DNA of 32,954 nucleotides from Planctomycetota bacterium (GTDB lineage Bacteria; Planctomycetota; Planctomycetia; Pirellulales; Pirellulaceae). Both the position numbers and the translations under genes were made by a program. Position 1 is the first letter of the stretch, and the number at the start of each line of letters is the position of its first letter. Of this stretch, positions 6,680-30,891 are shown in pieces. Below the pieces are notes generated by a model. That model made no database searches. It had not been told where the DNA came from and saw only the letters and a list, made by a program, of their open reading frames with translations. The stretch lies in assembly GCA_024274855.1 (NCBI GenBank), contig JAJSAJ010000948.1, positions 1 through 32,954 of the forward strand. Direction: 5' to 3'.

Positions 6680-6894
6680 GACTTCTGGACGCGATGTCAC
6701 AATCGGACAGGACATGCAAGCTGGCTCGCTGATCTCAGGAATACATTTCAAGAATTGAGCTGCAGTGAAACCGAACGAATCCATCGAACGGTTGTTTGTT
6801 TACAATTAGAGGGCCTTCAGCCTGCCCATGCGAAACAACTGCCTATTGCCAGTCAAGAACACGTGCGATCCAGATACTTGAACGTGAGAGAACC

Positions 6895-7314
6895 ATGCCA
6901 AAACACAAACGGGGATTTGCCGTTCGAGCTGTAATCAGCGATCAACGGGGCCGCTGTCTGCTGGTGCGGCGTTCGAATTCATCCAAGTGGTTTGCCGGAA
7001 CCTGGGAATGGCCGGGAGGCAAAGTCGATTCTGGAGAGACCTACGACGTAGCCTTGCATCGCGAAGTCGCTGAAGAGACCGGATTGGAGATCGAGCTGAG
7101 CGGTGTTGCCGGTGCGTATTCGATGGAAGTGGCAGGCAGACAGATCGCCGTATTGTGCCTTGAGGCAGCTTGCATTCGCGGAGACGTCTGTCTCAGTGAA
7201 GAACATGACGACAGCGTCTGGGCACCGATGGCAGATCTATTGCAGTGGGAATTGGCTCCCGATCTTCGCAAGTTCGCGGACGAGTATATCCAACGCACAT
7301 CGGATGGAGGCTGA
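6895..7314 (+). CDS. Nudix hydrolase (MutT-like)
   Basis: A 139-residue, single-domain Nudix protein. The Nudix box is complete: Gly42-x5-Glu48-x7-Arg56-Glu57-Val-x-Glu60-Glu61-x-Gly63-Leu64, preceded by the usual 'FAGTWEWPGG'. These enzymes hydrolyse nucleoside diphosphates linked to another group; known members act on oxidised NTPs, ADP-ribose, dinucleoside polyphosphates or (p)ppGpp. The overall look is MutT-like. The frame is open further upstream to 6796, but the domain starts at 'MPKHKRGFAV', so the ATG at 6895 is chosen. The stop is 3 bp from the start of the RelA/SpoT-SLOG-RyR gene, and the latter's GGAGG ribosome site lies inside the last codons of this gene, so the two are almost certainly cotranscribed. 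I infer that the substrate may be the nucleotide made or sensed by its partner. Confidence 0.93.
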   Translation: MPKHKRGFAVRAVISDQRGRCLLVRRSNSSKWFAGTWEWPGGKVDSGETYDVALHREVAEETGLEIELSGVAGAYSMEVAGRQIAVLCLEAACIRGDVCLSEEHDDSVWAPMADLLQWELAPDLRKFADEYIQRTSDGG

Positions 7315-7317
7315 ACA

Positions 7318-9879
7318 ATGGCAGACAAAACCCAGTTGACCGCAAAGAAGCATCAGGAACAAATCCAGGCTTACGCGAAAGTGCGTGACGTGTACAAATT
7401 GTATGCAGAAGTACTGAAACGGGTCTTCGAGAACGCCTGCAGCATCTCTTTTCCCGAAGCCCTGGTCCAAACCCGAGCGAAAACGCTTTCGAGCTTTGCG
7501 GAAAAGGTAGCTCGTAAGTTCTCGAAATATACGAACGCCGTACAGGACATGACCGATCTGTGCGGAGGACGTGTCATTGTCCAGACGACCGAGCAGGTGC
7601 TGGCCGTCCGAAGGTTCATTGAGGCCAATTTCACCATCATCGAAGCCGACAACAAGACGGCGTTACTCAGTAAAGACACGTTCGGGTACCGCGATATGCA
7701 CTATATCGTTCAGCTGCGAGAAGATAGCGACGAGCTGTTGAGTATTTCGCCGGCGGAACGCGCAAGTATCGGCGATCGCAAGGCGGAGATTCAAGTTCGC
7801 ACCTGGGTGCAACACGCGTGGGCCGACACGCTGCACGATCGAATCTACAAGAACCCGTTGAAGTCGGTCTCGTCGGACATCGCAAGAACGGGTGCTTTGC
7901 TGTCCGCGCTGCTGGAAGAAAGCGATCGTGCATTCAAACGCCTTGCCGACGAACTGGACGGCTTGATCACCAACTACACGGCAATTGCCACCGAAGATGA
8001 GGTCGAGAAGGAACTCAAGATCCAGCAGCTGGTCCTGGACAACGAACCGGACGAAAAGAATAAACCGGCATTGGCAATGAAACTCGCCAAACTGGCACTT
8101 GCATGTGGTAAGGATGCGATCGTCGTGAACACTCTGGAGCCTCACGTTGGGATCCGTGGTGCCAGTCGTTGCGAGTTACTTTCGGATCTTGGATTTGCCT
8201 ACTGCCGCATAAAACGAAGTGAGCCGACGAAGCCGTTGTATTCACGCGGCATAGAGTTTCTTGACGAGTCACTCTGTATTTGCCGGTGTGTGGACGTGCC
8301 CTTTGTTCCACATCTTCGAAAAAACGAGAGTCTTCACGCACGCGCGTTGGCTCGGTTGGCCTGGGCCATGGAAGTGATCCCCGGCGAGGAACATACTGCA
8401 CGCGAGTTTTTCCACCAGGCCCACGAGCATGAACCGGCCAATCCCTACTACCTGGCAAACATGCTCGGATTCGAAATGTACTGCTCGCATCAAGGCGACC
8501 TGCCGACCAGTATGCGGACCACGATACGCGAAGCGATCAGAACTTGTCATGAACACGCAATCAGGCGAATCGAACTTCCGTGGGCTTTTTTCACAGCCGG
8601 TCGTCTCAGTGTTCTGCTCGGTAAATCGAACGACGCACTCAGCTATTACGCTCGCGGCATCGGGCACTGCCTCGAGGGAATCCACTGTATTCCGGAGACC
8701 GCGTTCGACGGTGAGATTCAGTGGCTTACCCGTCTCCATTTCGGGATGCCGACACCTGGCAAGACTCAGCGTGTAATCGATCTGCTTAAGCTCGGCAAGC
8801 AGACCAAGGGTGGCAAGAGATCACCCGACACCGCTTCACCGATCAAAGCCCCCGTGCTGATTATCGCGGGCGGGGCTGCAAGTATCGACGCGGAAATGCT
8901 CGATCGAATCCACCCTTTCCTGAAAACCAGCTTGGAGTATTTCCAAGGAACGGTTATCGCCGGCGGAACGAATGTCGGCGTGCCAGGCCGCGTCGGCGAT
9001 GTGGCGGGCCAACTGGCAGCAGAGAACCGAAAACAGTTTCAGCTTGTCGGCTACGGTCCCGCGATGCTTCCGCAGGGCGTATCGGACCACCCGCATTACG
9101 ACCACTCGATTCATATTGGCGACGACTTTTCTCCCGACCAGATCCTTCGCAACTGGGCCGACATCCTCGCCGCCGGGATCGAACCGCGTCAGGTCATGTT
9201 GCTTGGCATGGGCGGTGGACCACTCAGTGCCGTGGAGTATCGCATCGCGCTCGGCCTCGGCGCCTCAGTCGGGATCGTGATGAACACGGGCGGCGCGGCA
9301 GACGAGTTGCGACAGGACGGACTCTGGAGCGACCGGCCGAACCTCTACCCGCTCCCATTCGACTCTGCAACGGTTCGGTCGTTTATTATTCCACCGCGGC
9401 GAAAGCTCAAACCATCTGTCAAAGAGGCGATGGCCAAGTGCTTTCACGAAATATATGTTGCCGGCAGCACGAGCCGACTACCCGCGAACATGCGGCCGTG
9501 GTCTGAACTCGATAAGACATTCAAGACGGCCAGCATGGAGCAGGCGAAGTACTCGGTTGCGATTCTCGAAGCCGCCGGGTTCGCCGTGACCGAGGTCGCG
9601 GAGGGCGAACCAGACATATTCGAGGACTTCACCGATGAAGAAGTGAATTTCATGGCCGAGATGGAGCATGGTCGCTGGAACGTCGAGCGGCTTCGAAACG
9701 GCTGGCGCTACGGCAAACCACGTGACGACAACATGAAAATCCATGACTGTATCGTTCGGTGGGAAGCCCTGAGCGACGACATCAAGAGTTATGACATCGC
9801 CGCGGTATGCGCTTTCCCCAGTATCCTTGCCGAAGCCGGGTTGGAGATTACTCGGAAGGAGGCAACGGACGACACCTGA
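7318..9879 (+). CDS. RelA/SpoT synthetase - TPR-like - SLOG - RyR multidomain protein
   Basis: An 853-residue soluble protein with four parts. Residues about 25-185 form a RelA/SpoT nucleotide pyrophosphokinase core: 'R-A-K-TLSSFAEK' (Arg53, Lys55), 'DMTDLCGGRV' (Asp80), 'FGYRDMH' (Tyr124, His128), 'EIQVRT' (Glu157, Gln159, Arg161) and 'QHAWADTLHDRIYK'. The synthetase residues look complete, and there is no HD hydrolase or TGS/ACT domain. Residues about 230-480 are helical and TPR-like. Residues about 511-690 resemble a SLOG/LSDAT Rossmann-type nucleotide-binding domain ('LIIAGGA', 'VIAGGTNVGVPG', 'LLGMGGGPLSAVEYRIAL'). Residues about 775-840 are a bacterial RyR domain ('MAEMEHGRWNVERLRNGW', 'YGKPRDD', 'KIHDCIVRWEALSDDIKSYD'). 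RyR and SLOG domains are known from nucleotide-centred conflict systems. I infer synthesis of an alarmone-like nucleotide controlled by the C-terminal sensors, with the upstream Nudix enzyme turning it over. The start is supported by GGAGG 7 bases upstream. Confidence 0.9.
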   Translation: MADKTQLTAKKHQEQIQAYAKVRDVYKLYAEVLKRVFENACSISFPEALVQTRAKTLSSFAEKVARKFSKYTNAVQDMTDLCGGRVIVQTTEQVLAVRRFIEANFTIIEADNKTALLSKDTFGYRDMHYIVQLREDSDELLSISPAERASIGDRKAEIQVRTWVQHAWADTLHDRIYKNPLKSVSSDIARTGALLSALLEESDRAFKRLADELDGLITNYTAIATEDEVEKELKIQQLVLDNEPDEKNKPALAMKLAKLALACGKDAIVVNTLEPHVGIRGASRCELLSDLGFAYCRIKRSEPTKPLYSRGIEFLDESLCICRCVDVPFVPHLRKNESLHARALARLAWAMEVIPGEEHTAREFFHQAHEHEPANPYYLANMLGFEMYCSHQGDLPTSMRTTIREAIRTCHEHAIRRIELPWAFFTAGRLSVLLGKSNDALSYYARGIGHCLEGIHCIPETAFDGEIQWLTRLHFGMPTPGKTQRVIDLLKLGKQTKGGKRSPDTASPIKAPVLIIAGGAASIDAEMLDRIHPFLKTSLEYFQGTVIAGGTNVGVPGRVGDVAGQLAAENRKQFQLVGYGPAMLPQGVSDHPHYDHSIHIGDDFSPDQILRNWADILAAGIEPRQVMLLGMGGGPLSAVEYRIALGLGASVGIVMNTGGAADELRQDGLWSDRPNLYPLPFDSATVRSFIIPPRRKLKPSVKEAMAKCFHEIYVAGSTSRLPANMRPWSELDKTFKTASMEQAKYSVAILEAAGFAVTEVAEGEPDIFEDFTDEEVNFMAEMEHGRWNVERLRNGWRYGKPRDDNMKIHDCIVRWEALSDDIKSYDIAAVCAFPSILAEAGLEITRKEATDDT

Positions 9880-12923: not shown

Positions 12924-13832
12924 ATGAAACCCATCCTGCCACTCCTGCTGCTTGGTCTTTGTGAACTTCTCGTTAACAACGCGGACGCGGCATTGACGCC
13001 CACAAGCCTGACCTGTGAATATCTTCACAATCCACCCGTTGTGGATGTACTGCAGCCTCGCTTGGCGTGGGTCAACGTCGCGGAACCGGGGGAACGCGGC
13101 CAACAGCAAACGGCTTGGCAGGTGCGCGTGGCCAGCTCGGTCTTCAGGCTGGCCAGTCCCGACTTGTGGGACAGTGGCAAACAAGTCTCAAAGCAATCAA
13201 CTCGCGTTACGTATGGCGGCAAGCCGCTCGCGTCGCGCCGGTAGTGCTGGTGGCAGGTCCGAGTCTGGGATCGGGATGGCGAGGTTTCCGCGTGGAGCAA
13301 ACCGGCGACCTGGAGCATGGGATTGCTCCAGCCTTCGGACTGGAAAGCGGAATGGATTGGTGCGCCCTGGCAAGGCGAAGAGGCACTCCCCAGGCCAAAA
13401 GGAGGTCCGAACGCCAAGCCGTCAGTCTTACCTCCCCCTGCTCCGCTCTTGCGAAAAGAGTTCGTTATTAACAAGAACATCGTGCGTGCTGTGGCCTATG
13501 TTACCGGCCTGGGATACTTCGAACTCTACGTCAACGGCAAGAAGGTCGGCGATGACCAGCTCGACATGGTCACGTACTCGAATGATACGCCGTTTGGAAC
13601 AGCGGGCATTTCCTGGCATCAAAGAAACGGCACGTTTCGCATGGACGTTCGTGTTCCGGTCGGGAGCACTGCTACCGTCTACGTTCCCACTAACAATGCA
13701 AGCGAGGTCACGGAAAGTGGCCAACGTCCCGACACATCACACGGTGTCACTTTCCAGCGAATGGAAGCCGGTTACGCCATCTACCGCGTCGGCAGTGGTC
13801 AGTACTCGTTTCAAGTCCGAACGGCCAATTGA
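12924..13832 (+). pseudogene. Alpha-L-rhamnosidase (GH78) remnant: nonsense codon plus loss of catalytic domain
   Basis: Codons 1-106 give a signal peptide ('MKPILPLLLLGLCELLVNNA') and the rhamnosidase N-terminal domain ('LTCEYLHNPPVVDVLQPRLAW', 'QTAWQVRVASS', 'DLWDSGKQVS', 'YGGKPLASR'). Codon 107 is TAG (13242-13244). The same frame then continues with 'WWQVRVWDRDGEVSAWS', 'WSMGLLQPSDWKAEWIG' and 'GYFELYVNGKKVGDDQLD', all typical for the family. After about 13575 it jumps directly to the family's C-terminal domain ('WHQRNGTFRMDVRVP', 'TATVYVPTNNASEVTESG', 'GVTFQRMEAGYAIYRVGSG'). Intact members are usually about 900 residues or more; the whole (alpha/alpha)6 catalytic barrel is missing. Two independent lesions make this a decayed gene. 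It once probably released rhamnose in the periplasm or outside the cell. Confidence 0.9.
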
Positions 13833-13972: not shown

Positions 13973-16675
13973 ATGCTTTCTTACCATCGAGTGACAATAA
14001 CTGCCATGGCATGCGCAGTGGTGATGGCCGCCACGGCATGGGGGGGCGATGGGATCCGTACGACGAAAAGGCCGAACCTCATATTCGTCTTCAGTGATCA
14101 ACACTCATGGGACATGCTTGGGTGCAATGGTAACTCGGATATCATGACACCTTGCTTTGACAAGTTCGCTAAACAAGGCGTTCGATTCACACAGTGCATT
14201 TCCAATTCACCAGTCTGCACACCCTATCGTGGAATCTTAATGACCGGCCAGCATCCACTTTATTGTGGTGCCATGCAAAACGATCTGCAAGTCCTGCCCG
14301 GACACAGCAATTACCTGGCCGAAGTCCTACGGGACGCGGGGTATCGCACGGGCTACTTTGGCAAATGGCATTTGTATGGCGGTGACCGAGTTCGTCCAGT
14401 ACCTGCTGGACCACTGCGGTACGGTTTCGACAACGACTTCTTGACCAACAACTGCACTTTGTTGTTTGATGCCAAGCGAGCCTACTACTGGGACGCTCAG
14501 GGCAACAAGCAGCTATACGGCAAATGGGAGCCGTACGCGCAGACAGACCAGGCGCTTGCGTTTATCGAAAGGCAAGGGACCGGCCCTTTTGCTCTTTTCC
14601 TCTCTTGGCATCCGCCCCACAATTGGGGACGTGCTCATGAAGGCTATTCGGCACCGGAGGACTGTCTTGCACTTTATGATCCGGCAAAGCTGCATTTGCG
14701 GCCGAATGTCGAAGACTCGCCCGCCGTACGCCTGAAATATCAAGGGCACATGGCTATGATCACGAGTCTCGATCGTTCGTTTGGCCGATTAATGAAGAGA
14801 CTGGCTGAACGCAACCTGGCCGACAATACGCTCGTTGTCTTCACGGCCGATCATGGGGACATGTTGATGTCTTACGGTTGGCCCAACAACAAGGGACGCG
14901 CCGAGGATGGATCGTGCCGCGTGCCGCTGCTGATGCGATTCCCTGGACGACTCGTGCCACGGGCCAGTCGGCTGCTGATCGGTACACTTGACCTGATGCC
15001 GACTCTGTTGGGGCTGCTCGAACTGCCGGTTCCAGAAACGTGCCAGGGCCACAATTTGACCGAGGCGATTTCTGGACAGGACGATGACGCGGTCGAATCC
15101 CAACCGTTGTTTTTCTTGCCGGCCGACTGGCGCGGCATTTACACACGACGCTATACCTACGCTTTCACCGTCAACCCAGATTCAGCACGCAGCCAGACCT
15201 TTTCCGATAACTTGCTGTATGACCATCAAAAGGACCCCTGGCAGTTACACAACTTGTTCAACTCGCCGAAACATGCAACGACTCGCAAACAATTGCACGA
15301 TGCCACGTTGCGATGGATGGAACGGTTCGGAGATACCGGGTTCCAATTTCAAGCATTACTGGAACAAGTCGTACGCGATGAAGACTGGCCGCTCGCCAGT
15401 TTGCCGCCACAATTCCGTGGACGTGGCTGGGAAGGTCGATTGAAGGGGCGCCCGGTCGATTTTCTGCCACTAAAGCCACCAAGGAAACCGGGAGCCGAGT
15501 TGCTCAAAGGCCTGACCATCAGACCGGCTGACGTGGTAACGGTCAGGAGCGAACGGTTGAAACTTTCCGCAAAACCGCCACGTGTTTGGGCCGAGGGCAC
15601 CAAGCTGCAGCGTCTGCGGCCGCTCGGGCCAAATACCGGAGTCCCCGCGCCGAACGCGGTCGATCCCGATAGCATCGTAGTGCGATACAATGGACGTGTC
15701 TTGACAAAGGGAGCTGACTACCTGGCAGATAAGACGTATGGAACGTTGGGCCTGGCACCCAATTCGAAAATATCTGCTCAAGATGATGTCGAGGTTGACT
15801 ATCGCTTCTCCTTGCGGCGTATTGACTCGATTGTCACAACTGTCGATAACCGCCGAGTGGTCCGCGTAGGTAAATCACACCTTACCGTCCCCATGCCGCC
15901 GACTTTGCTGGAAACAGACCGCCGCTTGGCCAATGTATTTGTCGATTATTTCAGCGATGGTCGTCATGTGGACGTGTTTCCGATCGAGCAACCGGCAATC
16001 GATGCGATGACCTTCACCACGCCAAATCGAATCCCCAAGACGTTGGCCAAATTGCGGCAAGAAAAGCCCGTCACCATTGTGGCTTGGGGCGACAGCGTCA
16101 CGGCAGGAGGCGACGCAAGCTCGCCGGAAACGCGCTACCCGGTGGCCTTCGAGCAACGACTCAAGAAAAAGTTTCCGAAAGCAAAAGTGACCGTGCGGAC
16201 GGTCGCAGTCGGTGGATCGAACTCCCGACAGTGGCTCTACCCCGACCGATTCCCTGGCCGGAATCCGCAGGGCACGCGTTGGCAACGCATTGTCGACGCG
16301 GACCCGGATCTCGTCACTATCGAATTTGTGAACGATTCCGGGATGTCTCCTCAACAGGTTAATCTCGTGTATGCCGACATTCTGAAACGATTACGGAAGA
16401 TCGGCGCCGAGGTGATTCTCATTACTCCCCATTTTACAATGCCGGCCATGATGCGGATGCCGACCCTGCACGAACTTGATCGACGACCTTATGTGCTTGC
16501 CTTGCGAATGTTTGCTGCTCGACATCATGTGGCATTGGCCGACGCATCTTCGCGCTGGGCACACTTGGGCAAGGAGGGTATTCCCTACGTAACACTCTTG
16601 CGCAATGGCATCAACCATCCCGATGATCGAGGCCACGCTATATTCGCGGATGAACTGATGAAATGCTTCGAGTGA
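13973..16675 (+). CDS. Sulfatase - SGNH/GDSL hydrolase fusion protein
   Basis: A protein of about 900 residues, numbered here from the ATG at 13973. It has a signal peptide ('VTITAMACAVVMAATAWG'). The sulfatase domain (about 30-450) has 'RPNLIFVFSDQHSWD', the formylglycine motif C-T-P-Y-R (Cys82), 'GYFGKWHLYG', 'FLSWHPPHNWG' and 'VVFTADHGDML'. A beta-rich linker (about 500-680) follows. Residues about 690-900 are an SGNH hydrolase: 'VAWGDSVTAGG' (nucleophile Ser708), 'VGGSNSRQW' (block II Gly/Asn), 'EFVNDSG' (block III Asn), and 'NHPDDRGHAIFAD' near the C-terminus (catalytic Asp/His). Both active sites appear complete. The natural reading is a bifunctional enzyme removing sulfate and an acyl ester from the same polysaccharide. 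The frame is open back to 13943, but the later ATG places the signal peptide at the N-terminus. Confidence 0.9.
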   Translation: MLSYHRVTITAMACAVVMAATAWGGDGIRTTKRPNLIFVFSDQHSWDMLGCNGNSDIMTPCFDKFAKQGVRFTQCISNSPVCTPYRGILMTGQHPLYCGAMQNDLQVLPGHSNYLAEVLRDAGYRTGYFGKWHLYGGDRVRPVPAGPLRYGFDNDFLTNNCTLLFDAKRAYYWDAQGNKQLYGKWEPYAQTDQALAFIERQGTGPFALFLSWHPPHNWGRAHEGYSAPEDCLALYDPAKLHLRPNVEDSPAVRLKYQGHMAMITSLDRSFGRLMKRLAERNLADNTLVVFTADHGDMLMSYGWPNNKGRAEDGSCRVPLLMRFPGRLVPRASRLLIGTLDLMPTLLGLLELPVPETCQGHNLTEAISGQDDDAVESQPLFFLPADWRGIYTRRYTYAFTVNPDSARSQTFSDNLLYDHQKDPWQLHNLFNSPKHATTRKQLHDATLRWMERFGDTGFQFQALLEQVVRDEDWPLASLPPQFRGRGWEGRLKGRPVDFLPLKPPRKPGAELLKGLTIRPADVVTVRSERLKLSAKPPRVWAEGTKLQRLRPLGPNTGVPAPNAVDPDSIVVRYNGRVLTKGADYLADKTYGTLGLAPNSKISAQDDVEVDYRFSLRRIDSIVTTVDNRRVVRVGKSHLTVPMPPTLLETDRRLANVFVDYFSDGRHVDVFPIEQPAIDAMTFTTPNRIPKTLAKLRQEKPVTIVAWGDSVTAGGDASSPETRYPVAFEQRLKKKFPKAKVTVRTVAVGGSNSRQWLYPDRFPGRNPQGTRWQRIVDADPDLVTIEFVNDSGMSPQQVNLVYADILKRLRKIGAEVILITPHFTMPAMMRMPTLHELDRRPYVLALRMFAARHHVALADASSRWAHLGKEGIPYVTLLRNGINHPDDRGHAIFADELMKCFE

Positions 16676-16856
16676 GATGTGGCCCGCCAAGGAGTTCCGC
16701 TCCCTGAGATCGATGCGGTGAACGCGGCAAACTGCGGCTATTACCCGTGTTACTCCGTATTCTGTTGACCGCACCCTGCCGCGGCCAAACAACTTGTCGG
16801 TCTCCTCTACCTCCAACTAGAAACGGTACGTGACCCCATATCCCTTGCGAATGCTC

Positions 16857-16862
16857 TATAAT
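16857..16862 (+). promoter_or_regulatory. TATAAT -10 box upstream of the DUF1080 gene
   Basis: A perfect TATAAT hexamer lies 61 bp before the chosen ATG. The best upstream partner (TGACCC, 16831-16836) is poorly spaced, so the -35 is unclear. Confidence 0.4.
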
Positions 16863-16922
16863 ACGGCGGCGTTCGTGAGTTTACCGACCTGCACATCACC
16901 CTCTGCCAACAGAAAGCGCCCC

Positions 16923-17567
16923 ATGTTCAAACAAACGCTTCTCATTGGATTGATCGCAGCCATGGCGACGTTCTCCGGTGCAACACTCCAACCGGCACGT
17001 GGAGACGACAGTGGATTCGTGCCGATGTTCGATGGTAAAACGCTCCAAGGCTGGAAGACAACAGGAAACTGGACGGTTCAACCGGGGGGCGTTATCGCCC
17101 TGACCCCTCGTCCTGGCGAGTCAGGCTGGCAACGTTTTGATGCCTACCTCATGACAACTCGAAAGTACAAAGATTTCGTCATCGATTTGGAGTTTAAGAT
17201 CGCAAAGGAAGGCAACTCGGGCGTGTTCCTGCGAGTTGGTAACCGTCGGGAACCGGTTAAGACGGGATTCGAGGTCCAAATCCTGGATACGCACGGCCTG
17301 GCCAACCCGGGAAACCACGATTGTGGCGGCGTGATCAGCGCGACAGCACCGAACAAGAATATGGCCAAGCCGGCGGGCCAGTGGAACCACTATACAATCA
17401 CTTGCCGTGGCCGCCATGTACAGGTCGTCATGAACGGAACGCAGATCATCGACCTCGACCTGGATCAATCACCGTTGAAAGACCGCCCGAACGAAGGCTA
17501 TATCGGTTTTCAGGATGAAGCCAAACTTGTCTGGTACCGCAATGTGAGAATCAAAGAGTTGAAGTAG
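16923..17567 (+). CDS. Secreted DUF1080 protein (3-keto-disaccharide hydrolase family)
   Basis: A 214-residue protein with a signal peptide ('MFKQTLLIGLIAAMATFSG', cleavage near 'ARGDD') and one DUF1080 domain filling the rest. Family marks are the opening 'FVPMFDGKTLQGWKTTGNW', 'DFVIDLEFKIAKEGNSGVFLR', 'GFEVQILDTHG', 'GQWNHYTITCRG', 'VVMNGTQIIDLDL' and 'GYIGFQDEAKLVWYRNVRIKEL'. The fold is a concanavalin-like beta-sandwich; some family members hydrolyse 3-keto-glycosides, and others are likely only sugar binders. The frame extends upstream to 16830, but the signal peptide starts at 16923. It follows the sulfatase-SGNH gene by about 250 bp and has its own TATAAT box, so it is probably a separate unit of the same polysaccharide-use cluster. 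Confidence 0.93.
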   Translation: MFKQTLLIGLIAAMATFSGATLQPARGDDSGFVPMFDGKTLQGWKTTGNWTVQPGGVIALTPRPGESGWQRFDAYLMTTRKYKDFVIDLEFKIAKEGNSGVFLRVGNRREPVKTGFEVQILDTHGLANPGNHDCGGVISATAPNKNMAKPAGQWNHYTITCRGRHVQVVMNGTQIIDLDLDQSPLKDRPNEGYIGFQDEAKLVWYRNVRIKELK

Positions 17568-19146: not shown

Positions 19147-20361
19147 CTATTTTGGCAGCACGCTGGCAACTGGGTAGCTACGAATGGTTGCCGGTTTTTG
19201 CGTGGCAGGGTGTTGTTTGCCGTCGGTCACCTGCTTGACAATCGATGTGATGTGGAGATCGAGTTCATTGATTTCCAGAAGTCCGTCACGCAAAGTATCG
19301 TACTTGGGATCACTCAGCACCTTGAGGATTGCGTAGGTAAACGCCCCATGCTGAAGGTTGTCCAATTCGACGCTCACTTCCCGCGCCGTAGAGGAAGCAA
19401 AAACAACGCCTCCAATTTCGTCAGAGATCAGGTCTCGCCAGGGGTCTCGGACCAGGGATTTAGCGCCCGTAATCCCAGCGCTGTGGCATGTATCGACGAA
19501 CAAAATCACTTTGCACGGCATGTTCGCGATCAACTGGGTGACCTCACTAAATGCAATTGCGGTGCTTCTTAGCCGTGACAACTGCGTTTCCTGGGTAACC
19601 ATGTGGTAGTTTTGGCGGTGGTCCAATACACCATGCCCGGAAAAGAACAGAATAGCGACGTCATGCTGAGTCACGGAATGGTCGAGCCAATCCATCGCGT
19701 CGCGTACAGCTTGCGACGAGGCGTCTTCTTCAACGAGTACCCGCGAGTGTACGGTCTTGTAGAACCGCCCTTGCTGCCGCTTCCAGATATCTGCAAATGC
19801 GAGTGCGTCTTGATCCGCAAATTTCAGATCTGAAATGTCTGGGTCGGCGTATGCTGATACGCCAACAGCCAACAGGTAAAGATCTGGCTTTATCTCCTGG
19901 CTCGTTTTCCGGTGGACATTCACCGACACCGGATTGCTAATGGACTTGTTCGTCCCGGCGAGAAGCGTAATAACGTTTCGGCCCGGTGCCAGTTGGACGG
20001 CACGTTTAACTTCCACTCGTGTCAGCTGATTGGAAACATGAAGGGGAGCCTGCGGTCTTTCTCGAAGAATGCCCTTGGCACCCGAAGCGCGGCGCCCGTT
20101 CACCAAGACAAAAACGCTTGGCATATCCATTCCGCGACGAAACAACACCTCGCCGCGCAAAGTCACCGTGGATTCGTATGTTGTCAGTTCATCCGTCGGT
20201 GACAGGATGCGGACTTCTGGTGGTTGAAATTCAGAAAACTGCTGCCGGTTGCGTAGATCAATAGCTGGCCGCGACCGCGGAAGTGCCGCGTTCGCCTCGG
20301 TAATCGCCCGCTTGACGTCGCCTGTAGCGACGATCCGGTCGATGATATCCGGTCGGTACAT
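19147..20361 (-). CDS. Caspase-fold (peptidase C14) part of a WD40-caspase protein
   Basis: A 404-residue frame with a C14 caspase domain from about residue 158: 'PDLYLLAVGVSAYADPDI', the catalytic His243 in 'FFSGHGV' and the catalytic Cys292 in 'FVDTCHSAG', followed by 'VFASSTAREVSVE' and 'GAFTYAILKVL'. Residues about 45-150 form Ig-like strands. The frame is the same as that of the upstream WD40 gene and is separated from it only by TAG (20398-20400) plus 12 codons reading 'SKYFSADRFRGQ'. In homologues known to me the stretch '...GGDRFIGW...RFR...YRPDIIDR' is continuous, so this is the C-terminal half of one protein, about 1,077 residues if read through. The ATG at 20361 lies within conserved sequence and could serve for restart. 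Such proteins are predicted death effectors or regulatory proteases. Confidence 0.88.
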   Translation of the reverse strand: MYRPDIIDRIVATGDVKRAITEANAALPRSRPAIDLRNRQQFSEFQPPEVRILSPTDELTTYESTVTLRGEVLFRRGMDMPSVFVLVNGRRASGAKGILRERPQAPLHVSNQLTRVEVKRAVQLAPGRNVITLLAGTNKSISNPVSVNVHRKTSQEIKPDLYLLAVGVSAYADPDISDLKFADQDALAFADIWKRQQGRFYKTVHSRVLVEEDASSQAVRDAMDWLDHSVTQHDVAILFFSGHGVLDHRQNYHMVTQETQLSRLRSTAIAFSEVTQLIANMPCKVILFVDTCHSAGITGAKSLVRDPWRDLISDEIGGVVFASSTAREVSVELDNLQHGAFTYAILKVLSDPKYDTLRDGLLEINELDLHITSIVKQVTDGKQHPATQKPATIRSYPVASVLPK

Positions 20362-22678: not shown

Positions 22679-22781
22679 AAAACGCTTACTATGCGTGCTC
22701 TGGAGAAACAGGTATACATTCTTTCAAAGATCACGAAGTATTTCATCTGAGTCGGGAAATCTGGCAAGAGGAGCTAGACCG

Positions 22782-23354
22782 ATGAATGATCGAAACCACG
22801 ACACCGAGCAGCGGGAATTGTCTATCTCGCAAATCGAAAGAATCGACGACCTATGCGGCACTTTCGAGTCGCAATGGCGAGCCGGGGCGAGACCGACGAT
22901 CGAAGATTATCTGGTCATGGTCACGGCACCCTTGCGTTCAACATTGCAGACCGAGTTGATTGCCTTGGAAATCGACCTTCAGCAGGCCAGCAAAGAGCAA
23001 GCCAAGTTGGACGAGTATCACCGACGGTTCCCTTTAGACCGGACGGCCGTCGAGGCCGGTTGGAGGTTGATTGTGGAGCAGAACATAAGAAATGAGGAGG
23101 TTCTGACCACAATCAAGGGATCACAAGATGGCAAACGGGATATGGGGAGCAATACCCCAGTCGTTGGCGACCGCGCCTACGAGGCGACGAAGTCCGATGA
23201 ATTGCCAACGCATATCGGCCGCTATCAGATCCTGAAGGTCTTGGGAGAAGGCGGATTCGGCCGAGTCTATCTGGCATTGGACCTGCAGTTGCAACGACAA
23301 GTCGCCTTGAAAATCGCCGGCAATCGTTGGCTAGCATCTGAAACGAAGATCTAA
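22782..23354 (+). CDS. N-terminal part of Ser/Thr kinase-nSTAND protein (up to in-frame TAA)
   Basis: A 190-codon frame. Residues about 1-115 are the helical N-terminal module often seen before planctomycete kinases ('RIDDLCGTFESQWRAGARPT', 'YHRRFP'). Kinase subdomains I and II follow: 'LGEGGFGRVYLA' (glycine loop) and 'VALKI' (ATP-anchoring Lys). It stops at TAA (23352-23354), right after 'NRWLASETKI', and the next codon in the same frame is ATG (23355), continuing 'MLFHEARLAASLKHPALV', which is the kinase alpha-C region. The break therefore lies inside the N-lobe and this fragment alone cannot be an active kinase. The start at 22782 is supported by AGGAG 8 bases upstream. The TAA-ATG junction could allow reinitiation. 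Confidence 0.82.
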   Translation: MNDRNHDTEQRELSISQIERIDDLCGTFESQWRAGARPTIEDYLVMVTAPLRSTLQTELIALEIDLQQASKEQAKLDEYHRRFPLDRTAVEAGWRLIVEQNIRNEEVLTTIKGSQDGKRDMGSNTPVVGDRAYEATKSDELPTHIGRYQILKVLGEGGFGRVYLALDLQLQRQVALKIAGNRWLASETKI

Positions 23355-25244
23355 ATGCTGTTCCATGAGGCCCGCTTGGCCGCGAGTCTGAAGCATCCGG
23401 CGCTGGTAGCCGTTTACGACATCCAACGAGAAGGTGACAACGTTTACATCATCCAGGAGTATGTAGACGGTAAAGATCTCGGCAAATGGGCGGAAGAGAA
23501 TCGGCCGTCCTGCGACCAACTTATCCGAGTCATCCTGGAGCTCGCTCAGGCCATTGGCTTTGCCCATCAAAAGAACCTGGTCCACCGCGACCTGAAGCCA
23601 AGCAATATCCTAATCGATCTCGAGGGACGCGCCCACATAGCCGACTTTGGGCTAGCTTTGCGTGAGAGCGTTCACCGGCTACGTAAGGGCGAGGTATCGG
23701 GCACGCCTGCCTATATGTCGCCCGAGCAGGTGCGTGGCGAAACCCATTTGACAGATGGGCGTTCCGATTTGTGGAGCATCGGTGTCATATTGTACGAGTT
23801 GCTTACGGGGCGCCGTCCGTTTCGAGGTGATACCCTGTCCGAGTTATTTGACGAGATCGAGCATCGCGACCCCAAGCCACTTCGGCAGATCAAGCCGGAG
23901 CTCCCGTCCGAACTGGAACGAATATGCTTGAAATGCCTCGAGAAGCGTCGCACCACGCGGTATAACTCAGCAGCAGAGTTGACCGACGACCTGCAAGCTT
24001 GGCAACAAGAGAAGTCACCGACAAGAGTCGACCGGCAAAATGCAATCAAAGAGATAGCCACGCCACCACGCGTCGTCCCGAAAGGCCTACGGTCATTTGA
24101 TGTGCATGATGCCGATTTCTTTTTGGGGCTCTTGCCAGGCCCACGAGACCGGAATGGGTTGCCCGAGAGCATTCGGTTCTGGAAGAGACGCATCGAACAG
24201 ACAGATCATGATGCTCCGTTTTCCGTGGGGTTAATCTACGGTCCGAGCGGCTGCGGCAAGTCATCGCTGGTCAAGGCCGGCCTGTTGCCCCGACTGGCCC
24301 CGCATGTCACGCCGATTTACGTTGAGGCAACGCCGGAAGACACGGAGTTTCGGCTGAGCATGGCTCTGCGCAGACATATCGAGAGAATTCCTGGCGATGT
24401 CGAACTTCCCGAGTTGCTTGCTGGATTGCGTGCTGGCCAATGGATCGGCAAAGGCAAGAAGACTTTAGTCGTGCTGGACCAATTCGAGCAGTGGTTACAT
24501 GCGAGACGTAACGAGCAAGATACAGATCTCGTACGAGCTCTACGGCATTGTGATGGAGTGCGTCTGCAATGCATCGTGCTGGTACGCGATGACTTCTGGC
24601 TCGCGGCCAGTCGCTTCTTGCAAGATCTTGAGATCCGCTTGCTTGAAGGGAATAATACTGCCTTGGTTGATCTATTCGATCCACTGCACGCCCGCATGGT
24701 ACTCGCCGACTTTGGCCGTGCTTACGACCGCCTTCCGGACGAAACGACGGAGTTATCCGACGAGCAAAACCTTTTTTTGGACCGGGCAGTGGAGGGTCTG
24801 GCCCATGAAGGCAAGATCATCTGTGTCCGCCTGGCTCTCTTTGCCGATATGTTCAAAGGTAAACTATGGAGCACCGACACGCTCACTCGGGTCGGCGGCA
24901 CCGAAGGACTTGGCGTGACGTTCCTGGAAGAGACGTTCGGCCTTCCAACGGCTCCGGCGGCACACCGGTATCACCAAAAAGCGGCTCAGGCAGTGCTGAA
25001 AGCCTTACTCCCTGAAGCGGGACCCGCAATTCGAGGACGCCGTTTATCCTATAGGGGATTATTGGAAGCGTCCGGATACGAGCGCAGAAGGCAGGACTTC
25101 CAGGATCTGATTCGAATCCTGGATAACGAACTCCGCCTGATCACCCCAACGGCTTCACGTGACGAGGATATTGAGGCAGGTAATCCGAACGGGGATCGTG
25201 GCGAAGCGAGCAAGGAGAAAGCGGAGAGGGCACGGAACGAATAA
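23355..25244 (+). CDS. Kinase catalytic lobe - nSTAND NTPase part
   Basis: A 629-residue frame in phase with the preceding and following frames. The kinase remainder (1-215) has the catalytic loop 'HRDLKPSNIL' (Asp79, Asn84), 'IADFGLA' (97-99 DFG) and 'GTPAYMSPEQ'. From about 250 there is a novel-STAND NTPase: 'FFLGLLPGPRDRNGLP', Walker A 'GPSGCGKSS' (296-304) and Walker B 'LVVLDQFEQW' (371-380). The end, 'DLIRILDNELRLITPT', normally leads through a short linker into 'YQLTHDYLVPSLR', which is found after the TAA (25242-25244) in the same frame. The linker here is long and charged ('ASKEKAERARNE'). In the full protein, kinase and NTPase would be cytoplasmic, N-terminal to a single membrane helix. 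ATP-driven oligomerisation on signal is the established behaviour of STAND proteins. Confidence 0.85.
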   Translation: MLFHEARLAASLKHPALVAVYDIQREGDNVYIIQEYVDGKDLGKWAEENRPSCDQLIRVILELAQAIGFAHQKNLVHRDLKPSNILIDLEGRAHIADFGLALRESVHRLRKGEVSGTPAYMSPEQVRGETHLTDGRSDLWSIGVILYELLTGRRPFRGDTLSELFDEIEHRDPKPLRQIKPELPSELERICLKCLEKRRTTRYNSAAELTDDLQAWQQEKSPTRVDRQNAIKEIATPPRVVPKGLRSFDVHDADFFLGLLPGPRDRNGLPESIRFWKRRIEQTDHDAPFSVGLIYGPSGCGKSSLVKAGLLPRLAPHVTPIYVEATPEDTEFRLSMALRRHIERIPGDVELPELLAGLRAGQWIGKGKKTLVVLDQFEQWLHARRNEQDTDLVRALRHCDGVRLQCIVLVRDDFWLAASRFLQDLEIRLLEGNNTALVDLFDPLHARMVLADFGRAYDRLPDETTELSDEQNLFLDRAVEGLAHEGKIICVRLALFADMFKGKLWSTDTLTRVGGTEGLGVTFLEETFGLPTAPAAHRYHQKAAQAVLKALLPEAGPAIRGRRLSYRGLLEASGYERRRQDFQDLIRILDNELRLITPTASRDEDIEAGNPNGDRGEASKEKAERARNE

Positions 25245-25283: not shown

Positions 25284-28200
25284 ATGAGATGCGGAGATGG
25301 GATGGGCGAAGAAGGACCACCTTGCATCGCCCCGAATACACCACCTGCCACTTGCCGCTACCAACTGACGCATGACTACCTCGTTCCCTCACTCCGCAAA
25401 TGGCTAACGCGCAAACAACGAGAAACACGCCGCGGCCGAGCGGAGTTGAAGCTTGTTGAACGGGCCGCGCAGTGGGCCTCACGATCAGAAAACCGATACC
25501 TGCCGACCGCGTTGGAAGATTTGAGTGTCCGCCTGCTGACTCGACATGAAGAATGGACCGAATCTCAACGTCGGATGATGCACAAGTCGGGCCGCTGGCA
25601 CGGTATGAGGACATTGGCCGTCGTCGGCATGATCCTGGCCGTGCCCGTGACCAGTGTAGTGATTCGCAATGACATACAGGCTGAACGCCGGCGCATTGAG
25701 GCCGAGAATCTGCAGAAACAAAACGCCACACACGCATCAGGCCTAGTCACCGCTGTAATGAAGGCAGACATCCAGCAAGTGCCCGCGATCGTCAAACAGA
25801 TTGGCAACTATCGCCAATGGACCGACCCGATTCTGAAAAGCGAGTACGAAAAATTCGAGGACGATTCGCCCGAGAAACTCAAGATTGCCTTTGCCCTACT
25901 GCCGGTCGATTCACGTCAAGTCGACTATCTCTACAACCGCCTCTTGGAAGCCGAACCGACGGAAGTCGTGGTTGTTCGCGACGCGCTGTTGCCCCACAGA
26001 AAACAGCTCGTTGACCGACTCTGGGGGCTTTTCTGGGGGATAGACAGCGAGGCCCAAGTGGACAAGATGGAGGCGGTGGACGGAGTCAGCAGGCTTGATA
26101 GGGCGGACACGGCAGAGGGAATCGATGGCCTCAAGCAGCTTCGAGCGGCCTGCGCGTTGGCCGTGATGGATGACAACAGCTTAAGGTGGCAGGAAATATC
26201 CAACCGCGTCGTAAGGCAGTTGGTCCACGTACGACCCGCGTTCGTTACCTATTGGCAGCAGGCACTCCGGCCGGTGAAGCGTGTTCTGTCCCCGTCACTG
26301 GCCGAGGCATGTCACGATCCGACTTTGACATCGACTGAACGCGCGTTAGCAACCGATCTGCTGGCCGACTACGCGGCCAACGCGCCTGAAGTGCTGGCAG
26401 ATGCGATCCAATACGCAGACGACGATCAGTTTGGCGTCTTCTTTCCATTGCTTGAAGCCAAACCGACCTCCGCCGTACCGGTCCTGGAGTCGTGTCTCGC
26501 TGAAAACCCAGCTTTCAACTGGCACGATTCGCCATTGGATCCGGCCTGGAAAACGCCCGACGCGTCGGTCGTCCAGAAAATTCAAGACGCTCATGGCAGA
26601 TTGATGGCTCGGTTCGCATTCTGTCAGACCTTGCCTTTAACGGACTTTCTGAATGTAGCCGAATCGTTGCGCGAATGCGGGTACCGACCAACGCGATTCC
26701 GCCCGTACTATTCTGGAGAAAAGGAGATCCACGTATCCGCCATCTGGGCCCGCGACACCAGCTCATGGCGAACCAAAATCGGCACTGTCGACGAAATCCG
26801 GTCTGAAAACAGGCGTCTGCAAGCCGATAAGTGGCAGGCCGTCGACATTGCCGGGTTCATGGCCCCGGACGCGGACGGCAAGTCTTCGCTGCTGTTTGCC
26901 GCATTATGGAATCAGGAGGGTGATGAGGCTCCTGCTCGCAAGTTGCTCGTTGGATTGCCTGCGGAAAATTGGTCGGCAGTTCGTCAATTTCTAGACAAAG
27001 CCGAATTGCGACGAGTGAACTGCTACAACGCGTCAACCACGCCGGAAGGCAAAACGCTGATTTCTGTCATTTGCAGCAAGAATGGCTCACATTCGTTTGC
27101 GTACAACGAAATTGGGTCTGGGTATTCGGGCGAGCTGCGTCCCGGCTTGTTGCAGGTCGACGTGGGGGTCGGCCGCTCGCCAAAACGCGAAAGCACGCAA
27201 CAACGTTACACGCGACAACTGGAAACTGCGGAACAAGCGATTGCCGCCGAACCGGATGATATTTCTGCGCGCCTCAGACATTTCATTGCCTGCTATCGTC
27301 TCGGCAAAAACGAGCAAGCTCTGGACGACATGGATCGGATATTCGCGACCCAGAAGAACGTATCGGCTCGCAGCTACCACCAGCGACGGTCGCTGATCCT
27401 TGCTCGCCTGGGCAAGAAACAGGAAGCGGAGAAGGAACTCGCAGAGTTTCAGAAGCTCTCCACGAGTGACGGTGAAAAGGCCTTCGTCAAGACCGTGGTC
27501 GCAGCACATTTGGGTACGGGGGATACGGCAATGGAGCGATTGGAACAAGAAGTTGCCCAACACAAGAGGGACATGGTTTTCCTGATCTGGGCAGCTCGTG
27601 CGTATAGTGTCGTTTCGGGGATCGTTCACAATCCGGACAAACGGGCCGCCTATGTCGAAAAAGCCATTGACTTGATCCAAAAAGGAATTGCGGAAGGCTT
27701 TGAGAACTACGCGGGCCTGACAAACGATTCGAACCTTGAACCGCTCGAGACAAGTCCGAGATTTGTCAAATTGCTGAAGAAGTATGGACTTGACCGCCGC
27801 TATACGGGCGTGTGGATAGAATCCATGTCATTCGAGTCGACCGAGGTTCATGGACTCTCCCCCCCAGACCAACTTGCTCGATCCATTGAATTGATCGAAC
27901 AAGGCTATCGTCCCGTGTCAATTGCTGCATGCAACCTCAACACGATGTTTGACTCCGCCAGGATTTTGTCGGACTCTCCCAACTCGCTCGCGCCCGCAAA
28001 CACGGGGCTTCCAGAACTCGAAACAGCCACAGTCTGGCATCGTCCCTTGATTCCGGAAGAAACGAAAGAAACCCTTGCCAAACGACAAGCCAATGCAGCA
28101 GTCACTCTTCTGAATCTCAACAAACCGTCGTCCGCCTGGCCCATCTTGCGTCACGCTCCGGACTCGCGAACTCGCAGTTACCTGATCCATCGCATGCGTC

Positions 28201-29327
28201 CATTGCACGTTGATCCCCAAATCCTGGCGGAACGTTTTCTCGACTCGTCTGAGGAAATATCGATCCGTCAGGCCTTGGCGCTGGCCCTTGGCGAGTTTGC
28301 CGCGGATCAACTGGCGGCGTCAAAGCGAGACGGGCTGTTGGAATCGCTTTTGAACATCTACCGCAACCATCCCGATCCAGGCCTCCACGCGGCAGTACGA
28401 TGGTTGCTGTGCCACTGGGGACACAAAAACCAAGTCTCGAAACTCGACGCGAGAATCCAGGAAACAGAAGCCCAATTGGCTGCCCGAAAACCGACCGACC
28501 GACGCCAGTGGTACGTGACGACACAAGGTCACACCATGGTGGTTATTCAAGGCGGCAGTTTCCTGATGGGCTCGCCGTTGACTGACCTGGATCGTTTGCA
28601 TGGCGAAACGCGCTATCGAAGAGACGTAGACCGCCGTTTTGCGTTGGCAGCAACAGAAGTGACACGTGCCCAGTGGCGGAAGTTTCAGCAAGCACATCCG
28701 GAAGAGACCAATGATGTCATGAAGATGCCGGAGTTTCTGGCGGTCGTCCTCACAGAAGATTCTCCGGTCGTGGCCGTCAGCTGGTATGAATCGGCAGCGT
28801 ACTGTAACTGGCTGAGCAAACAGGAAGGAATTCCGGAAGAGCAATGGTGTTATGTGCGTAACGCCGACGGCAAGTTCGCCGCTGGAATGCGGCCCAAGCC
28901 GAATTACCTGCTGCTGAATGGCTACCGCTTGCCAAGTGAAGCAGAATGGGAGTACGCCTGCCGGGCCGGTGCCACGACCTCGCGGTACTTCGGCCACACT
29001 GATGAACTATTGACCGACTATGCCTGGTATATGGCGAACAGCAACCATCACGCGTGGCCGACAGGCACGTTGAAACCAAATGATTTTGGGTTATTCGATA
29101 TGCATGGTAACGCCAATGAATGGTGCCACGGTCGGTGGACAAAACGCGGCAATGCCGGGAAGGACGTGGGAGATGCGGCACCGGTGCAGATTGCCGCGGA
29201 TCGCGCAGCTCGCGGCGGCAGCTTCGTCGAAACAGCGTCTCTCATACGTTCCGCGAGCGCCTTGGGCTTCCGGCCGGATGCGTTTAACTACGCTACCGGT
29301 TTCCGCGTGGCCAGAACTTATCATTGA
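25284..29327 (+). CDS. nSTAND tail - TM - HEAT/TPR - FGE-sulfatase-type domain part
   Basis: A 1,347-residue frame, in phase with 23355-25244. It begins in the same linker, and the conserved 'YQLTHDYLVPSLRKWLTRKQ' follows at about residue 26, so the ATG at 25284 is only a formal start. A single membrane helix lies at about 108-127 ('LAVVGMILAVPVTSVVI'). A long helical HEAT-like region follows, then TPR-like helices ('DISARLRHFIACYRLGKNEQ') and another HEAT-like stretch near 950-1050. Residues about 1075-1347 are an FGE-sulfatase/SUMF1-type fold ('VVIQGGSFLMGSP', 'VSWYESAAYCNWLS', 'RLPSEAEWEYACRAG', 'FGLFDMHGNANEW', 'RGGSF', 'GFRVA'). The catalytic cysteines expected around 'CRSA...GFRC' in true formylglycine enzymes are absent (here 'IRSASALGFRP'), so it is probably a ligand-binding module. 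Confidence 0.85.
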   Translation: MRCGDGMGEEGPPCIAPNTPPATCRYQLTHDYLVPSLRKWLTRKQRETRRGRAELKLVERAAQWASRSENRYLPTALEDLSVRLLTRHEEWTESQRRMMHKSGRWHGMRTLAVVGMILAVPVTSVVIRNDIQAERRRIEAENLQKQNATHASGLVTAVMKADIQQVPAIVKQIGNYRQWTDPILKSEYEKFEDDSPEKLKIAFALLPVDSRQVDYLYNRLLEAEPTEVVVVRDALLPHRKQLVDRLWGLFWGIDSEAQVDKMEAVDGVSRLDRADTAEGIDGLKQLRAACALAVMDDNSLRWQEISNRVVRQLVHVRPAFVTYWQQALRPVKRVLSPSLAEACHDPTLTSTERALATDLLADYAANAPEVLADAIQYADDDQFGVFFPLLEAKPTSAVPVLESCLAENPAFNWHDSPLDPAWKTPDASVVQKIQDAHGRLMARFAFCQTLPLTDFLNVAESLRECGYRPTRFRPYYSGEKEIHVSAIWARDTSSWRTKIGTVDEIRSENRRLQADKWQAVDIAGFMAPDADGKSSLLFAALWNQEGDEAPARKLLVGLPAENWSAVRQFLDKAELRRVNCYNASTTPEGKTLISVICSKNGSHSFAYNEIGSGYSGELRPGLLQVDVGVGRSPKRESTQQRYTRQLETAEQAIAAEPDDISARLRHFIACYRLGKNEQALDDMDRIFATQKNVSARSYHQRRSLILARLGKKQEAEKELAEFQKLSTSDGEKAFVKTVVAAHLGTGDTAMERLEQEVAQHKRDMVFLIWAARAYSVVSGIVHNPDKRAAYVEKAIDLIQKGIAEGFENYAGLTNDSNLEPLETSPRFVKLLKKYGLDRRYTGVWIESMSFESTEVHGLSPPDQLARSIELIEQGYRPVSIAACNLNTMFDSARILSDSPNSLAPANTGLPELETATVWHRPLIPEETKETLAKRQANAAVTLLNLNKPSSAWPILRHAPDSRTRSYLIHRMRPLHVDPQILAERFLDSSEEISIRQALALALGEFAADQLAASKRDGLLESLLNIYRNHPDPGLHAAVRWLLCHWGHKNQVSKLDARIQETEAQLAARKPTDRRQWYVTTQGHTMVVIQGGSFLMGSPLTDLDRLHGETRYRRDVDRRFALAATEVTRAQWRKFQQAHPEETNDVMKMPEFLAVVLTEDSPVVAVSWYESAAYCNWLSKQEGIPEEQWCYVRNADGKFAAGMRPKPNYLLLNGYRLPSEAEWEYACRAGATTSRYFGHTDELLTDYAWYMANSNHHAWPTGTLKPNDFGLFDMHGNANEWCHGRWTKRGNAGKDVGDAAPVQIAADRAARGGSFVETASLIRSASALGFRPDAFNYATGFRVARTYH

Positions 29328-29468: not shown

Positions 29469-29491
29469 TGAACCGTCAGTGGGACGGTTCA
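29469..29491. other. Perfect hairpin across the stop codon of the minus-strand sulfatase
   Basis: TGAACCGTC (29469-29477) and GACGGTTCA (29483-29491) form a perfect 9-bp stem with a 5-base loop. It overlaps the TGA of the sulfatase and lies between convergent genes. No T-run follows on either strand, so a terminator or mRNA 3'-end role is only possible. Confidence 0.4.
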
Positions 29492-30891
29492 TCGATCCAA
29501 CTTTGCCTCGGTTCGGCAAGAAAAACTCGGACACTCTTGGCAAGCTCCTCGGCCAACTCAGGGCGTTCAGCCAGCAAATCATTCGTCTCCCGAGCATCCG
29601 TCTCGATGTTGAACAGCTCTCGTGGTTTTCCATCGCGACAAAGGAGTTTCCACGGCCCACGGCGAGCCACTTCGGTAGAGTAGGGTTTTGGTTTGGGATA
29701 GTGACGTTGCAGATGCTTGTAGAGGTCGAGCTGCCAGAAAAGAGTGCCCCGTTGCACTTCGTCAACTGGCCTGTCGTCCAGAATATGTGGCAACAGGTTG
29801 ATTCCATCGATCGCCAGATCGCGTGGAAGTTGAACGCGAGCCGCAGCACAGAACGTAGGCAATATGTCGTTTGTGTGCGCCAACGTATTGGATGATCTTC
29901 CGGCGGAAATCCGCTTTGGCCAGTTGACGATCATGGGGACGCGGATACCCCCTTCGTGCAAGTCGGTTTTTCCACCTTTGAGACGGCCGATCCCGCCCTC
30001 GTAAGCCGCACCGTTGTCCGAGGTAAACAAGATCAGCGTGTTCTCGCGGATTCCCAGTTGTTCCAAGGTGGCGACAATCTGGCCTACCTTGGCATCCATC
30101 TGCTCGACCATCGATCGAAAACGGTGTTGGTCATCGGTGATATGCCGTTGCGCGGTTCGGGACCAATGGGGCTCCGGAGCTGGCTCGTAGGGCATGTGCG
30201 GAACGAGCCACCACACGTTAATGAAAAACGGTCGGTTGGTCTTTTGGAATCGACGAATCAAAGCCATCGTTTCATCGCCATTGATGTCGGTAAAGTGGCG
30301 ATTGTAGTAGGGGTGATCGGGCCCAACCTGGCGCTCATCACGAATCAGGCACGTACCGCCGTCTCGATACAAACGTCGCGCTCGCCCCAACTTCCCACGT
30401 AGCGGCTGTTCTTCGTTCTGGCAGAGATAGTGGTCGAATCCATGTTGCTGAGGGCCGGGGATCGAATGTGCTCGATCCCGAATATGCTTCAAGTGCAGCC
30501 CCCCCAGATGCCATTTGCCGACGTGGGCCGTCTGATAGCAGGCCCGTTTCAGCAGTCCAGGAAGTGTCATCACACCCCGCGGCAAATGAGACTCGTCATC
30601 AGGAAAATGCCTGTGTATGTCGAACCGCAATGGATAACGCCCCGTCAAAACAGATGCACGCGTCGGCGTGCAGACTGCCGAAGCAGCATAGAACTGCGTG
30701 AACTTCATGCCACCCTGGGCCAGCTTGTCGATATGCGGGGTACGGACGGCCTCGCTGCCAAACGCTGAGAGATCCGCATAGCCGAGATCGTCGGCCAACA
30801 GTAAGATCAAGTTCGGCCGTTCCAAAGCGTTCGTCGTATCCGAGAAACCGAATAGGATAGCGCACGAAATAAGGAGCAATTGTTGTTGCAT
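29476..30891 (-). CDS. Secreted sulfatase (formylglycine type)
   Basis: A complete 471-residue sulfatase with a signal peptide ('LLLISCAILFGFSDTTNA'). Key positions are the metal-binding pair Asp34-Asp35 in 'LLLADDLGYADL', the maturation motif C-T-P-T-R (Cys74), 'AHVGKWHLGG', 'WWLVPHMPYEP', 'ILFTSDNGAAYEG' and 'GGKTDLHEGGIRVPM'. The length and order match compact arylsulfatase-A-like polysaccharide sulfatases of planctomycetes. Cys74 must be converted to formylglycine by a separate enzyme; the FGE-like domain encoded just downstream on the other strand lacks the needed cysteines. A GGAG lies 9 bases before the ATG. It is divergent from the SGNH remnant at 31011. Confidence 0.95.
   Translation of the reverse strand: MQQQLLLISCAILFGFSDTTNALERPNLILLLADDLGYADLSAFGSEAVRTPHIDKLAQGGMKFTQFYAASAVCTPTRASVLTGRYPLRFDIHRHFPDDESHLPRGVMTLPGLLKRACYQTAHVGKWHLGGLHLKHIRDRAHSIPGPQQHGFDHYLCQNEEQPLRGKLGRARRLYRDGGTCLIRDERQVGPDHPYYNRHFTDINGDETMALIRRFQKTNRPFFINVWWLVPHMPYEPAPEPHWSRTAQRHITDDQHRFRSMVEQMDAKVGQIVATLEQLGIRENTLILFTSDNGAAYEGGIGRLKGGKTDLHEGGIRVPMIVNWPKRISAGRSSNTLAHTNDILPTFCAAARVQLPRDLAIDGINLLPHILDDRPVDEVQRGTLFWQLDLYKHLQRHYPKPKPYSTEVARRGPWKLLCRDGKPRELFNIETDARETNDLLAERPELAEELAKSVRVFLAEPRQSWIDEPSH

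Follow-up and report, generated by a model that had tools for sequence, protein, structure and literature searches.

In the ulvan pathway of Formosa agariphila, the two domains of P36, an S1_25 sulfatase joined to a GH78, act in consecutive steps (PMC8511951). Among carbohydrate esterases, many CE2 enzymes work with Ser and His and without a usable block V Asp (PMC9487903). The targets of the very many sulfatases of Planctomycetes and Verrucomicrobiota are mostly unknown. In the present work, a stretch of DNA of 32,954 nt (the window) from a draft planctomycete bin (7.0 Mb, 1157 contigs, 73.6% complete) was analysed, in which a sulfatase and an SGNH esterase are encoded by a single gene. The fusion is a new combination of two known enzyme types and was found in one genome. 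It is probably genuine and, so far, the only one of its kind; a whole S1 sulfatase, a linker of about 14 residues and a two-domain esterase make up the chain, which would clear one glycan. About 83 candidate places in the bin matched the query, nearly all of them sulfatases. By pointing to a second activity on a shared substrate, the fusion turns one of these approximately 80 sulfatase-like loci into a testable pair. The two-domain esterase family represented by the second half may be a more durable result than the fusion itself.

Domain composition of the fusion protein

The sulfatase::SGNH fusion gene was located at 13973..16675 on the forward strand as a continuous ORF of 900 aa with no internal stops, inside an open frame of 912 codons. 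The Pfam domains detected above the curated cut-offs were Sulfatase (PF00884) at residues 34-349 with an E value of 1.2e-46, SGSH_C (PF16347) at 311-444, and Lipase_GDSL_2 (PF13472) at 705-890 with an E value of 1.8e-19. Residues 1-25 (13973..14047, +) contain the hydrophobic MACAVVMAATAWGG stretch and were assigned by eye from the translation as a likely Sec signal peptide. The first-pass annotation of this DNA had placed a sulfatase and an SGNH esterase on one secreted chain; both domains were recovered by Pfam, and the chain is predicted to be secreted from its signal peptide.

The S1-type sulfatase domain covers residues 31-460 (14063..15352, +) and was defined by PF00884 and PF16347. The score of this half with PF00884 was 159.8 bits compared to the cut-off of 25, as expected of an S1 formylglycine sulfatase, and its nearest PDB chains, 2qzu, 6j66 and 8di0, were mixed. 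The formylglycine motif C82-T-P-Y-R86 (14216..14230, +) corresponds to the C/S-x-P-x-R maturation motif, and the metal- and sulfate-binding residues are in place. In an alignment of 13 sulfatase sequences (A4), C82, R86, K131 and D293 were invariant, and D42 and K307 were nearly so; H133 and H294 are also present in the sulfatase half of the fusion. The C-T-P-Y-R motif and the sulfatase metal residues were thus rightly recognised at the first reading.

The SGNH/GDSL esterase domain comprises residues 700-893 (16070..16651, +), and the esterase half scored 71-73 bits with PF13472 against a cut-off of 32.9. The best PDB match of the SGNH half was the mannan acetylesterase RiCE17 (6hfz, 6hh9), with a profile E value of 5.6e-12 and a fold E value of 2e-10. 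The closest structural matches of the SGNH half have mannan, xylan and other esters as substrates; a polyvinyl-alcohol esterase and a thioesterase are among the Foldseek matches besides the acetylesterases. Residues 514-690 (15512..16042, +) make up a beta-domain at the N-terminus of the esterase module and are weakly DUF4815-like: a weak DUF4815 match was obtained at E<0.01 in 39 of 50 module members, and the profile search also matched 9euf, a phage baseplate DUF4815 chain. In the structural model of the module, the beta-domain and the SGNH domain formed one compact unit with a mean pLDDT of 95.8 and a pTM of 0.92, and the residues of the beta-domain were mostly at pLDDT 90-98. A DUF4815-like N-terminal domain together with an SGNH domain in one solved structure was not found among the best 50 Foldseek matches. 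The fold prediction of the whole chain, which used six sequences, resulted in a pLDDT of 55, a value too low to read the packing of the two halves.

The join between the two halves

The stretch of roughly 180 residues between the two enzymes had been described as an unassigned linker. It was resolved into a sulfatase tail of 39 residues, a real linker of about 14 residues and the conserved, folded beta-domain. The beta-domain may bind carbohydrate, as had been suggested for the linker. In the search of the family genomes with the sulfatase half, a standalone sulfatase orthologue was detected in genome G004 (531-codon frame, 55% identity by that count); further standalone orthologues were found in G1057 and G1051, both from another phylum. 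By BLAST, the three orthologues were 49-51% identical to the fusion, and the alignment extended up to residue 498. The orthologue C-termini read ...LKGRPVDLLGSVSAPGETGN, ...LLGRPLDLIRGIKR and ...LPGRPIDVLRQER, each directly followed by the stop codon; the fusion reads ...LKGRPVDFLPLKPPRKPGAELLKG... at the same place and then continues. The standalone sulfatases L150, L151 and L152 finish in L.GRP[VIL]D shortly before the stop codon. Because the match to the standalone orthologues reaches residue 498 and their endings are of the same form, residues 461-499 (15353..15469, +), ending in LKGRPVDFL, were assigned as the sulfatase's own C-terminal tail.

The relatives of the C-terminal half begin to match at about residue 514; some of them are whole proteins that measure about 440-500 aa and have an apparent signal peptide each. 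Residues 514-690 are therefore the N-terminal domain of the esterase family. The true linker, approximately residues 500-513 (PLKPPRKPGAELLK; 15470..15511, +), lies outside both groups of relatives. The alignments to standalone proteins show both native boundaries of the fused parts in the predicted chain. Neither a signal peptide nor a remnant of intergenic DNA was detected at the join, and the GC3 was flat along the fusion gene, ranging from 0.51 to 0.69. A simple missed stop codon is disfavoured, since the signal peptide of the second secreted gene would remain in that case.

The SGNH active site

The catalytic Ser708 in WGDSVT (16094..16096, +), Gly748, Asn787 and the catalytic His882 (16616..16618, +) were invariant in 62 of 62 related modules, which accounts for the residues of blocks I, II, III and V, respectively. 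The Gly-Asp-Ser, the block II Gly and the block III Asn named in the first-pass annotation were hence confirmed. The terminal Asp-x-x-His named along with them was not. His882 sits in an N-x-[IVL]-N-H-P motif across the modules (N-G-I-N-H-P in the fusion), and position 879, three residues before it, is occupied by A, G, N, C, S or T and never by Asp; the canonical D-x-x-H is absent. In the profile alignment to 5jd3, Asn878 and a one-residue insertion stand opposite the canonical block V Asp. The sole D-x-x-H near the end of the chain is D885-R-G-H888. It was rejected as the catalytic Asp-x-x-His: column 885 is mostly not Asp, and column 888 is His in 20 of the 62 modules and Met or Leu in the other 42 (29 and 13, respectively).

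The statement that both active sites are intact consequently holds for the sulfatase site and for the Ser, Gly, Asn and His of the SGNH site; the block V Asp is absent, and the SGNH site is non-canonical. Judging from the aligned modules, the missing Asp is a family-wide trait and not damage in the fusion, and the site looks functional though non-canonical. The assignment to the SGNH superfamily was kept despite the absent block V Asp because CE2 has known exceptions. His882 may be polarised by Asn878, a backbone carbonyl or water. A further candidate is Asp857, which is present in 58 of the 62 modules; the remaining 4 have Glu at this position.

Genomic neighbourhood

A remnant of a GH78 alpha-L-rhamnosidase gene was identified directly upstream of the fusion at 12924..13832 (+) by tblastn with the intact GH78 of locus L095, by translation and by Pfam. 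The remnant is interrupted by a stop codon (13242-13244) and has lost about 610 codons internally, from residue ~400 to 1013, without a change of frame. Only Ig_Rha78A_N and Bac_rhamnosid_N/C were detected by Pfam, the catalytic domain PF17389 being gone; identity with L095 is about 45-54% over the N-terminal Ig domain and a part of the N domain. The dead rhamnosidase reported at the first reading is accordingly more than dead, having lost its catalytic domain entirely. The genome retains at least four other GH78 genes. In L095, L138 and L139, an intact GH78 gene adjoins the module gene; the GH78s of the three are about 80% identical to each other, and their modules share 49-51% identity with the fusion module. 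In L166, a fourth close relative located near a contig end, no GH78 was seen. Downstream of the fusion and on the same strand lies a 3-keto-disaccharide hydrolase/DUF1080 gene (16830..17567, +; PF06439, E 6.7e-47), in agreement with the first-pass annotation, and a PF06439 gene is also found near the GH78-module pair of L138.

In the case of L168, a sulfatase gene directly follows the module gene on the same strand and a sugar transporter lies upstream; in L167, a sulfatase is about 4 kb from the module. A sulfatase was present within a few kb of the module in 8 of 42 loci. Such loose proximity is mostly uninformative in genomes that have so many sulfatases, and only L168 was counted. At L142, a GH28-like gene is located directly downstream of the module.

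Further genes were recorded in the window. Two more sulfatase genes were found at 32-865 (+) and 29476-30891 (-), the former lacking its N-terminal half, which was apparently cut by the contig end. A protein of 1347 aa encoded at 25284-29327 (+) has a formylglycine-generating-enzyme-like domain at its end. The serine/threonine kinase-nSTAND1 gene at 22695-25244 (+) is split by one stop in frame (23352-23354), which an ATG follows immediately, and the kinase match in the second part begins at profile position 46; the gene may be a pseudogene, contain a sequence error or consist of two parts. Near the kinase/nSTAND protein, a caspase-like peptidase gene is located at 19147-20361 (-). An 853-aa protein with RelA/SpoT-like, SLOG/LSDAT and RyR domains (7318-9879, +) directly follows a NUDIX gene (6796-7314); by their domains, the two look like a nucleotide-signalling pair.

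Distribution of the esterase module and of the fusion

Of the 241 genomes of the source's family, 12 carried the module. Among genomes sampled at the phylum level, it was present in 9 of 392 from Planctomycetota, the phylum of the source, and in 51 of 388 from the phylum to which the Lentisphaeria bin with L029 belongs. Most of the modules are standalone, occurring as separate secreted genes of 415-500 aa. The standalone module represents a two-domain esterase family that is widespread and, as it appears, uncharacterised. A fusion of the module with a GH5 cellulase-type domain was found in L029:6849-9164. The module also occurs at the C-terminus of DUF7133 and cytochrome c proteins of ~1,400 residues (L086:3800-8227 and L087:3793-8049) and is fused to right-handed beta-helix proteins in L088:4172-7756 and L089:3509-7090. 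The members of a sister module clade (L120, L121, L122, L125, L092) carry an N-terminal extension of roughly 250-300 residues.

In the phylogenetic tree, the fusion module was placed in a clade of eight with a FastTree support value of 0.998, and the remaining members of the clade all belong to the other phylum. L095, L138 and L139, with their adjoining GH78 genes, and L167 and L168, with a sulfatase nearby, are in this clade. Within it, the fusion, L029, L167 and L168 formed a nearer group with a support of 0.93. A transfer of the module between the two phyla is possible on the basis of this topology.

A taxonomic spread of the fusion, which had been put forward as a check at the first reading, was not observed: it occurs in one genome, and in all the other searched genomes the two parts are encoded separately. 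A second sulfatase-module fusion was found neither among the 1,910 genomes searched nor in the class of G658, and the sulfatase motif was not found in the other long SGNH family proteins L015, L018, L021, L024 and L027. A 1024-aa "fusion" in G292 was discarded because its frame merely reads through GC-rich DNA and the actual gene is standalone. No module relatives were found on viral contigs, and the plasmid search for the module returned distant SGNH domains only. In the titles and abstracts of open-access papers, no sulfatase-esterase fusion was found, which is weak as evidence of absence.

Proposed function and alternative explanations

If the fusion is genuine, the sulfatase-esterase chain would be exported, formylglycine would be formed from C82, and the sulfatase half would remove a sulfate ester. 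The Ser708-His882 pair would remove an acyl group, probably O-acetyl, with Gly748 and Asn787 forming the oxyanion hole. The two activities may share an oligosaccharide substrate, most likely one that contains rhamnose, and a glycoside hydrolase could act once the two decorations were cleared. The suggestion of the first-pass annotation that the desulfation and the deacylation of one glycan are coupled is kept as the reading to which the contexts best point, namely GH78 in three genomes, the sulfatase of L168 and the GH5 of L029. A rhamnose-containing polymer is proposed because of the GH78 context; the GH28 of L142 would also fit pectic rhamnogalacturonan. A bolder version is put forward tentatively and is itself rather doubtful. 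According to it, a bifunctional sulfatase-deacetylase would bind a sulfated and acetylated rhamnose-containing polymer once and strip sulfate and acetyl from neighbouring positions of that polymer. The esterase half would then stand for a new family of two-domain carbohydrate esterases, in which the site is Ser-His(-Asn) and a DUF4815-like domain is integral.

The broken rhamnosidase next door means that the locus may be decaying and that the fusion may be non-adaptive. The halves could have been joined as the rhamnosidase was lost, giving a real fusion that is neutral or decaying and in which one half no longer contributes. The gutted GH78, the occurrence in one genome and the missing block V Asp are all consistent with such a course. 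However, the family-invariant catalytic residues are all kept in both halves, the absence of the Asp is family-wide, and 2.7 kb are read without a stop or a frameshift; we regard this explanation as unlikely.

The separate occurrence of the genes in the rest of the genomes searched, the fragmented and incomplete state of the bin, and the large deletion in the adjoining GH78, which could likewise be an assembly effect, would be expected if two separate genes had been combined into an assembly or binning chimera and no such protein existed. In contrast, the join is in frame and falls inside the ~14 codons that separate a native C-terminus from a mature N-terminus, leftover signal peptide and intergenic DNA are absent, and the GC3 does not shift over the join. 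The upstream GH78 remnant also matches the GH78-module neighbourhood of the relatives, and both sides of the junction therefore fit the locus. A chimera is thus quite improbable. The first-pass annotation had named separate homologues and an artefactual join as the evidence against a fusion; the former were found, and the latter is not supported, given the in-frame join at native boundaries and the flat GC3.

In a further alternative, which is very unlikely, the substrate of the esterase half is not an O-acetylated glycan; this half would cleave a methyl, feruloyl or different ester, or transfer acyl groups, and the two domains would not share a polymer. SGNH folds take many substrates, the matches include a polyvinyl-alcohol esterase and a thioesterase, and modules are found on DUF7133-cytochrome c proteins as well. 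However, the contexts are mostly glycan-related (GH78, the GH5 fusion, GH28 by L142, sulfatases), and a mannan acetylesterase ranks first by fold.

Comparison with known systems

The genuine fusion preferred here resembles P36 in carrying an S1 sulfatase and a second carbohydrate-active enzyme on one chain, and the glycan of P36 is rhamnose-rich. The second domain of P36 is a glycosidase, whereas that of the fusion is an esterase, and the sulfatase of the fusion was placed at the S1 level only. Furthermore, the ORF of the fusion is without a GH78 catalytic domain; GH78 is a separate, broken gene, from which PF17389 was lost.

The esterase module shares with CE2 (CtCE2, BpEst2A; PMC9487903) the order of a beta-domain followed by the SGNH domain, and many members of CE2 likewise have Ser and His without a usable block V Asp. 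In contrast to CE2, the beta-domain of the fusion is DUF4815-like and not a CE2 domain. No CE2 structure was matched by profile, and none was matched over both domains among the best 50 fold matches. RiCE17 (CE17/CEX) was the top profile and fold match to the SGNH half, but about half of the fusion module aligns with it (TMq 0.44). The accessory domain of RiCE17 is a C-terminal CBM35, whereas the fusion module ends with the SGNH domain and its accessory domain is N-terminal. The members of the standalone two-domain SGNH family (L010, L012, L116), from Planctomycetota and the phylum of G645, differ in being separate genes or in having other carriers, never fused to a sulfatase in the sample, but they match the whole module with 31-51% identity and have the same invariant residues.
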